A stretch of 64,000 nt of DNA from Luteimonas arsenica (GTDB lineage Bacteria; Pseudomonadota; Gammaproteobacteria; Xanthomonadales; Xanthomonadaceae), in the NCBI RefSeq assembly GCF_004352825.1, contig NZ_SJRW01000002.1, positions 992,001-1,056,000 on the forward strand, given 5' to 3'. Both the position numbers and the translations under genes were made by a program. The notes under the pieces were generated by a model. It was not told the DNA's origin and ran no database searches. It was given only the letters and a program-made list of their open reading frames with translations. Of the stretch, positions 48,866-52,761 are shown piece after piece; position 1 is the stretch's first letter; every line of letters begins with the position of its first letter.

Positions 48866-48942
<77 letters not shown>

Positions 48943-49097: not shown

Positions 49098-50510
49098 TTG
49101 ATCAAGCCCCGCACGCCCCCGGGCGTCCTCGAGCTGCTCCCGCGCGAGCAGGTCGCCTTCCAGCGCATGCTCGACACCATCCGCCGCACGTTCGAGGCCT
49201 ATGGCTTCTTGCCGGTGGAAACCCCCGTGTTCGAGCTGTCCGAGGTGCTGCTGACCAAGACCGGCGGCGAGACCGAGCGCCAGGTGTATTTCGTGCAGTC
49301 CACCGGCGCGCTGGAGAAGGCCGCGGCCGGCGAGGGCGGCGCGCTGCCGGAGATGGCCCTGCGCTTCGACCTGACCGTGCCGCTGGCGCGCTATGTCGCC
49401 GAGCACGAGCACGACCTGGCCTTCCCCTTCCGCCGCTACCAGATGCAGCGCGTCTACCGCGGCGAGCGTGCCCAGCGCGGCCGCTTCCGCGAGTTCTACC
49501 AGTGCGACATCGACGTGATCGGCAAGGACACGCTGTCGCCGCGCTTCGAGGCCGAGGTGCCGGCGGTGATCAACGCCGTGTTCGAAGCCCTGGGCATCGG
49601 CGAGTTCACGATCCAGCTCAACCACCGCAAGCTGCTGCGCGGCTTCTTCGCCGGCCAGGGCATCGGCGACGAGGCCCAGCCGCTGGTGCTGCGCGAGATC
49701 GACAAGCTCGACAAGCGCGGCGAGGAGGCCGTGCGCGCGACCCTGGAAGGCGAGGGCTTCGGCCTGTCGCCCGAGGTGGCCGAACGGCTGCTGGCGTTCT
49801 CCCGCATCCGTTCGCAAGGCCACGGGGATGCGCTGGCGAAGCTCGACGCGCTGGGCGATGGCACGCCGCTGTTCGAGGAAGGCCGCGGCGAGCTGCGCGC
49901 GCTGCTCGGCATGCTCAAGGCCATGGGCGTGCCGGAGTCGCGCTACGCGATCAACCTGTCGATCGCGCGCGGCCTGGACTACTACACCGGCATGGTCTAC
50001 GAGACCACGCTGGACGCGAACCCCGGCATCGGCTCGATCTGTTCCGGCGGCCGCTACGACGACCTGGCCGGGCACTACACGAAGTCGAAGCTGCCCGGCG
50101 TCGGCATCTCGATCGGCCTGACGCGCCTGTTCTGGCAGCTGCGCGAGGCCGGCCTGGTGGCGGCGGCGGAAAGTCCGGTCGATGCCCTGGTCGCGCTGTT
50201 CGACGATGCCGGCCTCGACGACGCGCTGGCACTGTCGCAGCGACTGCGCGCCGCCGGCCTCAACGTCGAAACGCAGGTCGAGCCGCGCAAGCTCGGCAAG
50301 CAGTTCCAGTACGCCGACCGCGCCGGCATCCGCCACGTGGTGGTGCGCGGCGAGGACGAGGTCGCGCGCGGCGTGGCCACGGTCAAGGACCTGCGCCACG
50401 GCGAACAGTTCGAAGTGACGGTTGATGGACTGGCCGATGCGCTGCTCGCGCGTCGGGCCGACGTCGCCGCCGTGCCGGCGCAGGGCCCCGCCGAAGGAGA
50501 TGCACGATGA
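49098..50510 (+). CDS. hisS: Histidyl-tRNA synthetase
   Basis: 470 residues from TTG 49098 with CCGGAG 9 nt upstream. Class II motifs: [15 protein letters not shown], motif 2 [20 protein letters not shown] with [10 protein letters not shown], the histidine A loop [13 protein letters not shown] and [10 protein letters not shown], and motif 3 [14 protein letters not shown]. An anticodon-binding domain ends the protein ([15 protein letters not shown]). It is somewhat longer than the E. coli enzyme (424). The stop overlaps the ammonia-lyase gene as ATGA. Confidence 0.95.
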
Positions 50511-52408
50511 AGCCGGTCCTGCTCGACGGACGTTCGCTCACCCGCGCCCAGCTGGTCGCGGTCGCCCATGGCGCCCAGGTCTCGCTTGATGACGGCGCGC
50601 TGGCCGCCGTGGCGCGCGCGGCGGGTTTCCTCGCCGAGCAGGTGCGCCGCGAGGAGCCGATCTACGGCGTGTCCACCGGTTTCGGCAGCAACGCCGACAA
50701 GCTGCTCGGCGCGCACCCGCTGCGCGACGGGCTTCCCGGCGACAGGCCCTCGGGCCGCTCGCTCCACGCCGAGCTGCAGCGCAACCTGATCGTCACCCAC
50801 GCCGTCTGCGTCGGCGAGCCGATGGCCGCGCCGGTGGTGCGGGCGATGATGTGCATCCGCATCAACACGCTGCTGCGTGGTCATTCCGGCATCCGCGTCG
50901 ACACCCTGCAGGCCATGACCGCGCTGCTCAACGCCGGCGTGGTGCCGGTGGTGCCGCAGCTGGGCTCGGTCGGCGCCTCGGGCGACCTGGCACCGCTGTC
51001 GCACCTGGCGATCGTGCTGCTGGGCGGTGGCGAGGCTTTCGTCGATGGCGAACGCGTGCCGGGCGCCGAGGCGCTGCGCCGCGCCGGACTCGCGCCGGTC
51101 GAGCTGTCGTACAAGGAAGGCCTGTCGCTCAACAACGGCACCGCGCAGATGCTGGCCATGGGCGTGCTGGCGCTGGCGAAGCTGGAAGACCTGCTGGACA
51201 CCGCCGACCTCGCCGCAGCGATGACGCTCGACGCCTTCGCCGGTCGCCTCGGCGCCTATGCCGAGGACGTGCACGCGCTTCGCCCGCACCCGGGCCAGGT
51301 GGCCGCCGCCGCACAGCTGCGCGCGCTGCTCGAAGGTTCCACGCTCGCCGACATTCCCTACCACCTGGTGCCGCGTTTCCGGCAGTGGCTGCCCGGCAGC
51401 TGGGCCGACGCCGGGGCGCAGGCGCTGTCCTTCGACATCAGCTGGGACTGGGTGCCCTGCAGCCAGCGCCACGGCCGCGAGAAGTTCTACCAGCGCTTCA
51501 AGCCCTTCCGCGGCGGCAAGAAGCACCAGCCGCAGGACAGCTACTCGTTGCGCTGCGTGCCGCAGGTGCACGGCGCGGTGCGCGACGCCGCCGCCCAGGC
51601 CGCGCGCGTGCTCGAAGTCGAGCTCAATGCGGTCACCGACAACCCGCTGGTCTTCCCCGACAAGGCCGCCGAGCACGTCGAGGAGCAGGTGATCTCCGCC
51701 GGCCATTTCCACGGCATGCCGCTGGCGCTGGCCATGAGCTACCTCAAGGCCGCGATCCCGGTGCTGGCCTCGATCAGCGAGCGCCGCCTGAACAAGCTCG
51801 TCGATCCCGCCACCAACGACGGCCTGCCGGCCTTCCTGATCGGCAACGAGGATGGCACCGAGTCGGGCTTCATGATCGTGCAGTACACCGCTGCGGCCAT
51901 CGTCAACGACCTCGCCAGCCGGGCGCACCCGGCCAGCGTGTACTCGGTGCCGACCAGTGCGAACGCGGAGGACCACGTGTCGATGGGCGCCAACGAGGCG
52001 CGCCACGTGCTGGCCATGGCCGACGACCTTGGGAAGGTATTGGGCCTGGAGCTCTACACCGCCGCCCAGGCACTGGACCTGCGCCGCGACATGATCAACG
52101 CCGCGCGCGATCTTGCCCGCAACGGTGACGCCGCGGCGCTGGCGGCCAAGGTGCAGGGCGCGCCGCCGGTGGAGTCGCCCGACCATGCGCGCTTCATGGC
52201 CGAGGTCGAGGCGCTGCGCGTGGAGCTGGCGGAAAGCGAAGCCTTCCATCCGGGCGGCGCGGTGGGCGTGGCCCACGGCGTGATCCGCGAACGCATCGAG
52301 GGCATGGAGCGTGACCGGGCGATGGACGGTGACGTCGCCGAGGCCGTGCGCCTGGTGGGCGACGGCGTGCTGCTGGCGGCGGTACGCGATGCCGGGCGGG
52401 GCGGGTGA
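50507..52408 (+). CDS. Histidine ammonia-lyase family protein, enlarged form
   Basis: 633 residues against about 510 for HutH. The MIO cofactor would form from Ala157-Ser158-Gly159 ([12 protein letters not shown]). [10 protein letters not shown] carries the active-site tyrosine. [15 protein letters not shown] has Thr-His where histidine lyases have Ser-His and tyrosine or phenylalanine lyases have His-Leu or Phe-Leu, so histidine is the better guess. [11 protein letters not shown] is conserved. An insertion at about 278-340 ([13 protein letters not shown]...GGKKHQPQD) and a longer C-terminal tail account for the extra length. It is coupled to hisS, not to other hut genes. It may make urocanate or act in a special pathway. 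Confidence 0.85.
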
Positions 52409-52761
52409 ACCTGCCCCTGCACCTGGGTTGGTTGGGTGCGCTTGAGGCCGGATTGATCGCGCTGCTGGTCGGCGCGCTGGCCTATGCCCTGTTCCACGTC
52501 ATCGCTGCCCGTGCCCGCTGGGCACCTGGCCACGCCGTCGGCTGGGCCTGCCTGGCGGCGGTCGCAGTGGCTGCCGGCATCGACATCTGGCACCTGTTCC
52601 GCATGGGCGTGGTGAAGCTGGAATCGCCGGTGTACGCGCGTATCGCATTGTCGAAGATCCACGACGCAGACAGCCTGGGCATCCGGGTGCTGATGGAAGT
52701 GCTGGGCGCTCTGGTGGGGGTCACCCTGGGCTGGATGTTTTTCCACCGCCGGAAACCCTGA
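52405..52761 (+). CDS. Small integral membrane protein of unknown function
   Basis: 118 residues from GTG 52405, overlapping the lyase stop as GTGA. Three hydrophobic helices are visible (AGLIALLVGALAYALFHV, AVGWACLAAVAVAAGIDIW, GIRVLMEVLGALVGVTLGWM) with a basic C-terminus HRRKP. I recognise no family. Its coupling suggests co-expression with hisS and the ammonia-lyase. Confidence 0.75.
   Translation: MNLPLHLGWLGALEAGLIALLVGALAYALFHVIAARARWAPGHAVGWACLAAVAVAAGIDIWHLFRMGVVKLESPVYARIALSKIHDADSLGIRVLMEVLGALVGVTLGWMFFHRRKP

Follow-up and report, generated by a model that had tools for sequence, protein, structure and literature searches.

An enlarged, probable histidine ammonia-lyase encoded behind hisS in Luteimonas arsenica and related bacteria

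The closest described counterpart of the protein considered here is HutH, the histidine ammonia-lyase (HAL) of Pseudomonas putida (1b8f/1gkm; TIGR01225, NF006871). Ties of hut genes to other histidine genes have been reported: one study (PMC5343134) predicts that in Colwellia and Idiomarina the his operon is co-regulated by HutC, and another (PMC9413887) describes a hisR paralogue that adjoins hutH and hisT in Oscillibacter. We analysed a 64,000-nucleotide stretch of the Luteimonas arsenica genome (2.97 Mb in 7 contigs; coded G000), referred to as the window, in which an enlarged HAL is encoded at 50507–52408 directly behind hisS, the gene of histidyl-tRNA synthetase (HisRS); features lie on the forward strand unless stated otherwise. 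The protein is most likely a new structural variant of HutH in a conserved pair with hisS. It is probably the lineage's own HutH, an enzyme dependent on 4-methylideneimidazole-5-one (MIO) that would convert L-histidine to trans-urocanate and ammonia. Genomic context and residues make this identity the most likely one: the enlarged HAL was the sole MIO match in L. arsenica, it carries the full HAL catalytic set, hutU, hutI and hutF are present, and no canonical HutH was seen in the carriers.

Family assignment, active site and insertions

The product of 50507–52408, 633 amino acids (aa) long, contained one PF00221 (Lyase_aromatic) domain, which scored 570 bits against a gathering cut-off of 27.3. 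As an earlier sequence-only reading of the window had claimed, it was about 120 residues longer than canonical HutH. It reached 541 bits with the HAL subfamily model NF006871 (PRK09367; curated cut-off 524), and its top PDB matches by sequence were HALs. The window's HAL was 93% identical to the proteins of Luteimonas padinae and L. granuli. A chance or mis-called open reading frame (ORF) was ruled out, because the enlarged form recurs with its insertion length nearly fixed.

Counterparts of the P. putida residues Tyr53, His83, Asn195, Gln277, Tyr280, Arg283, Phe329 and Glu414 were all present. In a report on Geobacillus HAL (PMC11432326), eight residues were mutated, and no activity remained when the Tyr, His, Asn or Glu was changed. 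The counterparts of these eight (Tyr53, His98, Asn210, Gln343, Tyr346, Arg349, Phe401 and Glu488) were invariant in all 128 rows of the enlarged family alignment, as was the MIO-forming triad Ala157-Ser158-Gly159 (50975–50983). Gln343, Tyr346 and Arg349 belong to the stretch QDSYSLR (51533–51553) and align with P. putida HAL residues 277, 280 and 283. The Thr-His selecting pair that had been noticed from the sequence was found again as Thr97-His98 (50795–50800), with His98 aligned to P. putida His83 in alignments to relatives and 1gkm. Thr occupied position 97 in 108 of the 128 rows; the other 20, several more distant members among them, had the canonical Ser. Met456 was invariant in the 38 rows of a smaller alignment (A1). 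In phenylalanine and tyrosine ammonia-lyases (PAL and TAL), Gln replaces Glu414 and the selecting pair is Phe/His-Leu; with Thr97-His98 and Glu488, the enlarged HAL did not show the PAL/TAL residues.

The additional length came from four insertions (15, ~51, 6 and 51 aa), defined as gap runs in an alignment with 21 canonical HutH sequences from the order; two of these (L192 and L260) are incomplete ORFs. The runs were located at residues 72–86 (15 aa), 283–318 and 326–340 (51 aa together), 387–392 (6 aa), 446 (1 aa) and 530–580 (51 aa). The insertion at about 278–340 that the sequence-only reading had described was real and corresponded to the outer-loop insertion at residues 283–340 (51353–51526), which lies directly before Gln343/Tyr346 and ends three residues before Gln343. 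An inner-loop insertion (residues 72–86, 15 aa; 50720–50764), which comes after Tyr53 in the inner active-site loop, had been missed. Extra C-terminal residues were present, as had also been said, but they are better regarded as an internal C-terminal insertion (residues 530–580, 51 aa; 52094–52246), modelled as mostly helical by AlphaFold, than as a longer tail.

The stretch 283–342 was exactly 60 residues long in 124 of the 128 rows. Within the outer-loop insertion, 15 of 58 positions were invariant, including Trp294, Trp299, Phe309, Asp310, Trp313, Pro333, Phe334 and Gly-Gly-Lys-Lys 336–339; the C-terminal insertion (51 positions) and the inner-loop insertion (15 positions) had one invariant position each. 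The mean pair identity was 0.66 in the outer-loop insertion and 0.67–0.84 in the core segments that precede residue 530, but 0.44 and 0.41 in the C-terminal and inner-loop insertions. These values indicated that the outer-loop insertion is nearly as constrained as the core, while the others are loose.

In the AlphaFold model, a monomer built on 38 close relatives, the mean predicted local distance difference test score (pLDDT) was 79.9 and the predicted template modelling score (pTM) was 0.84. The outer-loop insertion was modelled as ordered, with two strands and a helix (pLDDT of 69–89 in 10-residue blocks), in the structure prediction that the sequence-only reading had called for; the active-site loops were poor, with pLDDT under 50 at residues 51–72, 96–102, 154–161, 397–399, 445–451 and 478–486. 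Because of these weak loops, the monomeric state and the narrow set of relatives, no distance from the insertion to the active site is claimed. Searched against PDB sequences, the insertion had no match at E values up to 1, a result that does not by itself point to a new fold. It may be that the 51-aa outer-loop insertion covers the mouth of the active site and tunes access or affinity.

Distribution of the enlarged form and the Hut pathway

A sample of 151 genomes of the order was searched with the protein. The enlarged form was found in 56 genomes, only other or partial HAL matches in 81 (from which the 21 canonical HutH rows were read), and no match in 14. It was nearly whole length in 55 of the 56 carriers, the copy of G045 being cut at a contig end. 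The carriers span six families (f1, f2, f3, f5, f11 and f12). In a class-wide draw with up to three candidates scored per genome, 3 of 369 genomes matched at E 1e-60, and all three belonged to the same order. In a tree of 64 MIO proteins, the enlarged form made up one group (99/99), the 21 canonical HutH proteins one group and nine enzymes of a second type another; the program flagged long branches that come together, and the branching between the groups is accordingly uncertain.

A single MIO match was obtained in 46 of the 56 carriers, and for seven of these (G000, G126, G001, G054, G106, G146 and G090) also by family profile; a canonical HutH beside the enlarged HAL was seen in no carrier. 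The other ten hold a second MIO enzyme of another type (HNQDKVS/GHFYGGH); nine of these were read, that of G045 being recognised by its GHFYGGH stretch only. It shares the MIO fold and the genomes with the enlarged HAL, but it differs in HNQDKVS and, in the nine read, in Gln at 488, with about 31–38% identity in the best segments. The idea that the enlarged HAL is a spare beside another HutH was thus rejected for L. arsenica, where it is the sole PF00221 match, and the ten second enzymes are of another type. In the four loci read (L182, L184, L186 and L188; Pfam on L182 only), the second enzyme lay in an aryl-polyene-like cluster, with acyl carrier, thioesterase, ketosynthase and flavin genes as neighbours.

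Within the family to which the window belongs, some genomes carry a canonical hut cluster and have no HAL by hisS (L191, L192, L193 and L194; L201–L205); in these the canonical cluster has apparently replaced the enlarged form. The canonical HutH ORF of one of them (G061; L192 6325–7731) was short, 468 aa, and did not contain the aligned catalytic Gln-Tyr-Arg stretch, which may reflect start choice, a frameshift or a real change.

The later steps of histidine degradation were encoded in L. arsenica at two distant loci. The hutU gene (TIGR01228, 979 bits) was located on contig C1. On contig C2, hutI (446 bits) and hutF (524 bits) are divergently oriented, at a distance of some 175 kb from the HAL gene; all three genes exceeded their curated cut-offs. 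Urocanate from the enlarged HAL would feed HutU, HutI and HutF. Among the four neighbours or near-neighbours of hutU that were scanned, no other hut gene was recognised. The genome showed no second HutH, no hut operon and no hut gene beside the HAL (hutG was not looked for), which leaves the enlarged HAL as the only candidate for the first step, although it lies apart from hutU/hutI and so is not a member of a hut operon. The sequence-only reading had hinted at an enzyme other than the housekeeping one and had called for a search for a separate complete hut operon; it granted that the lack of such an operon together with normal HutH kinetics would make this simply the housekeeping enzyme. The operon half of that came true, no separate operon being found and the later steps being scattered, and the hint was not supported. 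A HutC-type palindrome before hutU, hutI and hutF reached at best 9 of 12 positions in 23 upstream stretches, nothing convincing, and this result, obtained with no shuffled control, is weak. Shortly upstream of hutU, a VirD4-like coupling-protein gene was observed that scored below model cut-offs (L141 3340–5025, contig C1).

Across the carriers, hutU was found in 50 of 56. Of the six without it (G033, G045, G059, G062, G073 and G090), four are less than 90% complete; hutI was over the cut-off in G033, G045, G059 and G062 but not in G073 and G090. Order-wide, a HAL match went together with hutU in 129 of 136 genomes, whereas only 3 of the 14 genomes lacking such a match had hutU (Fisher p 7e-10, uncorrected for relatedness). 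The three were G123, G133 and G149, the other 11 having none; among genomes with only other HAL matches, hutU was detected in 79 of the 80 tested (G052 left out). G111 had no HAL and neither hutU nor hutI over the cut-off, whereas its genus mate G001 had all three.

Several observations weigh against the assignment as HutH. The single-match counts rest on at most eight scored first-look candidates per genome. G090, which is one contig and 99% complete, has an intact enlarged HAL by hisS (L154 5212–7107) and no hutU or hutI over the cut-off, a serious exception. G073 (86% complete, 510 contigs) also had neither gene over the cut-off, and G033 (96% complete, 420 contigs) had hutI and no hutU. 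With the hutH equivalog model TIGR01225, the window's protein scored 514 bits against a cut-off of 539.15, and among four further enlarged members only that of L146 passed (556.9), so the enlarged HAL is not filed as a TIGR01225 hutH equivalog. Asn209, Met404 and Ala487 were fixed in 128/128 enlarged rows and in 0/21 canonical rows, which have Leu/Ile, Glu/Gln and Gln at these positions; Asn209 adjoins Asn210, Ala487 adjoins Glu488, and Met404 lies three residues after Phe401. Fold comparison of the model placed two HALs first (Z 33.1 and 32.4), followed by a tyrosine aminomutase (32.2) and a TAL (32.0), with P. putida HAL 1b8f at Z 31.6 (root-mean-square deviation 3.2, 484 residues aligned). 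Every leading row was a MIO enzyme, and HALs were not separated from TAL and aminomutase, so that the modelled fold appears neutral between the three.

The fixed substitutions next to or near the catalytic residues, the TIGR01225 score and the unresolving fold scores would suit a MIO enzyme acting on a different substrate (either a modified histidine or an aromatic amino acid), whose pocket had been reshaped by the insertion and the three substitutions. We regard this as very improbable. His98 and Glu488 are invariant, and most carriers would then have hutU without any HutH found. The scores with the PAL model phe_am_lyase (245 bits, cut-off 519) and the aminomutase models TIGR03832 (337 against 501) and TIGR04475 (327 against 800) argue in the same direction, TAL, PAL and aminomutase models all being far below their cut-offs. 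Histidine is kept as the presumed substrate of the enlarged HAL.

The pair with hisS

The hisS gene of the window (49098–50510; 470 aa, TTG start; TIGR00442, 398 bits against a cut-off of 286.75) encodes the sole full-length HisRS match in G000 and the only one over the cut-off. Its stop and the HAL start share 4 nt, ATGA. The coupling of the HAL gene to hisS and a membrane-protein ORF rather than to hut genes, which had been read from the sequence, was upheld by 4-nt overlaps on both sides, and the order with hisS proved conserved far beyond L. arsenica. In 127 of 128 enlarged HAL rows, hisS was directly upstream on the same strand; in the remaining row (L029) it was also upstream on the same strand, about 2 kb off. 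The gap was –4 in 45, –1 in 10 and +1 in 14 rows (69/127 together), with a maximum of 381 nt. Presumably hisS and the HAL gene are carried on one mRNA with coupled translation; HAL synthesis would then keep pace with that of the synthetase and lie outside the HisR regulon. Between 48800 and 53000, nothing promoter-like was detected on the forward strand, and two weak terminator-like sites were found, both on the reverse strand.

A hisR-hisG-hisD-like run (hisR being of the Trp-repressor family; Pfam names in L205) followed within about 8 kb in 67 of 99 loci, that is, in 67 of the 81 from the window and 80 named relatives. The 14 loci without it were the window, L041, L042, L044, L049, L050, L067, L069, L078, L099, L102, L104, L111 and L119, five of which have less than 3 kb of sequence left. 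None was seen in 18 stretches from more distant relatives (0.4–5.4 kb available, so short that loss would also fit), which suggested that the hisS-HAL unit is older and that only some of the group have the his operon next to it. Five genomes that lack the enlarged HAL (G013, G032, G061, G101 and G111) had hisR-hisG after hisS with no HAL between, one opposite-strand ORF intervening in G032 and G101; the contig of G023 ends too early to show what follows hisS.

About 250 upstream bases were scanned with the proteobacterial HisR consensus given in PMC9413887, at a threshold of at least 11 of 14 positions; the best of 80 shuffled sequences reached 10. HisR-like boxes preceded hisR in 72 of 72 loci and HAL in 0 of 99 (best 9). 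Before hisS they were found in 3 of 104, one of which (L075, its hisS cut) was hisR's own box. Control of hisS-HAL by HisR was rejected on these counts, with only two true cases, and most members seem to keep the pair outside the HisR regulon. The two, L159 (13/14) and L146 (11/14), have their boxes about 100 bases before hisS, unlike the rest.

The hisS gene of the group is of a different type from that of the sister families (window and loci L195–L253) and was apparently replaced. Scores were 378–410 bits in 10 genomes of the group against 464–501 in 7 sister genomes, and 9 sister genomes gave no match at E 1e-40. The best PDB match was the cyanobacterial 3net (392 bits); the next types scored at most 247 bits, with 220 for the eukaryotic cytoplasmic enzymes and 126 for the type of E. 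coli (1htt). In a tree of 48 hisS rows picked from the loci at hand, the group's hisS sat with three from other classes of the phylum. That both hisS and HAL differ from those of sister families suggests a linked origin but does not prove it. Joint arrival of the two from a donor is likewise unproven, as no HAL was seen in the roughly 4.3-kb loci of the nearest outside hisS genes (G863, G572 and G526).

Both history by itself and a functional valve are compatible with the pairing. The link could quite possibly, if tentatively, be put down to historical accident: the replaced hisS would have landed beside hutH in a common ancestor, in an order rarely broken since. This is compatible with the enzyme being HutH and agrees with the distance of the group's hisS type from sister families, by which both genes changed on the group's stem. 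It sits less easily with an order kept in 127 of 128 rows although the downstream genes differ, and with gaps of –4, –1 or +1 nt in 69 of 127.

The same order, held across six families, could also speak for a histidine homeostasis device, in which HAL is made together with HisRS and histidine beyond charging needs is drained to urocanate, the insertion lowering affinity or responding to the state of charging, perhaps through contact with HisRS. The pair is often part of a histidine synthesis locus (67/99), HisR-like boxes mark hisR (72/72) but not HAL (0/99), G090 retains the HAL without hutU/hutI, and the insertion has a nearly fixed length and invariant aromatic residues. We nevertheless think it unlikely. 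The presence of hutU in 50 of 56 carriers and its absence together with HAL and hutI in G111 would be expected of a catabolic enzyme, gene order is no proof of joint function, the 18 more distant stretches have no his operon behind HAL, and five genomes have hisS without HAL. A shade more doubtful still is the fuller proposal that HisRS and the enlarged HAL form one functional unit, co-translated, with an aromatic outer loop gating the active site, so that charging comes first and the excess is drained to urocanate, and kept even where the hut pathway is missing (G090).

Downstream, the HAL stop shares 4 nt, GTGA, with the start of an ORF for a small membrane protein of 118 aa (52405–52761), recognised by hydropathy and with no match in Pfam and NCBIfam at E 0.001. 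It was present in 15 of 80 named relatives (overlapping HAL by 4 nt in 11 of the 15), in one (L012) of 29 short loci, and in 0 of 18 stretches from more distant relatives; it is a local passenger. On the other side, a tRNA-Pro(CGG) gene on the reverse strand (48866–48942; ARAGORN), upstream of hisS, forms the upstream border of the unit.

Comparison with known systems

A structurally distinct histidase form has been retained across six families of one bacterial order, in a long-kept gene pair that joins the use of histidine in translation with its destruction. The pair offers a test case of a synthetase gene tied to the breakdown of the amino acid that it charges. The insertion, which would lie at the active-site mouth, can be seen as nature's own experiment on how a histidase is controlled. 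Annotators should look for hutH of these genomes behind hisS. Searches of open-licence PMC papers turned up no description of an enlarged HAL paired with hisS.

The Colwellia/Idiomarina HutC and Oscillibacter hisR cases resemble the present one in that a hut gene is tied to histidine synthesis or its regulator, but the accessible parts of those reports mention neither a hisS partner nor an enlarged HAL. Plant and fungal PALs with an enlarged C-terminal part have the MIO fold and extra C-terminal residues in common with it; the C-terminal insertion may resemble the PAL shielding domain. The enlarged HAL differs from them in Glu488, in the Thr-His pair and in a score far under the PAL model cut-off.

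The canonical hut clusters of the same family (G023, G061, G101 and G032) share the pathway, with HutH encoded near hutU. Their HutH proteins are 508–513 aa where the ORF is complete and have no insertions; hisS lies away from the hut cluster and, in G061, G101 and G032, is followed by hisR-hisG. With P. putida HutH, the enlarged HAL shares the fold, the MIO triad, the catalytic residues, the Ser/Thr-His pair and Glu at 488. It departs from it in its four insertions, in Asn209, Met404 and Ala487, in a score below the TIGR01225 cut-off, and in adjoining hisS instead of hut genes.

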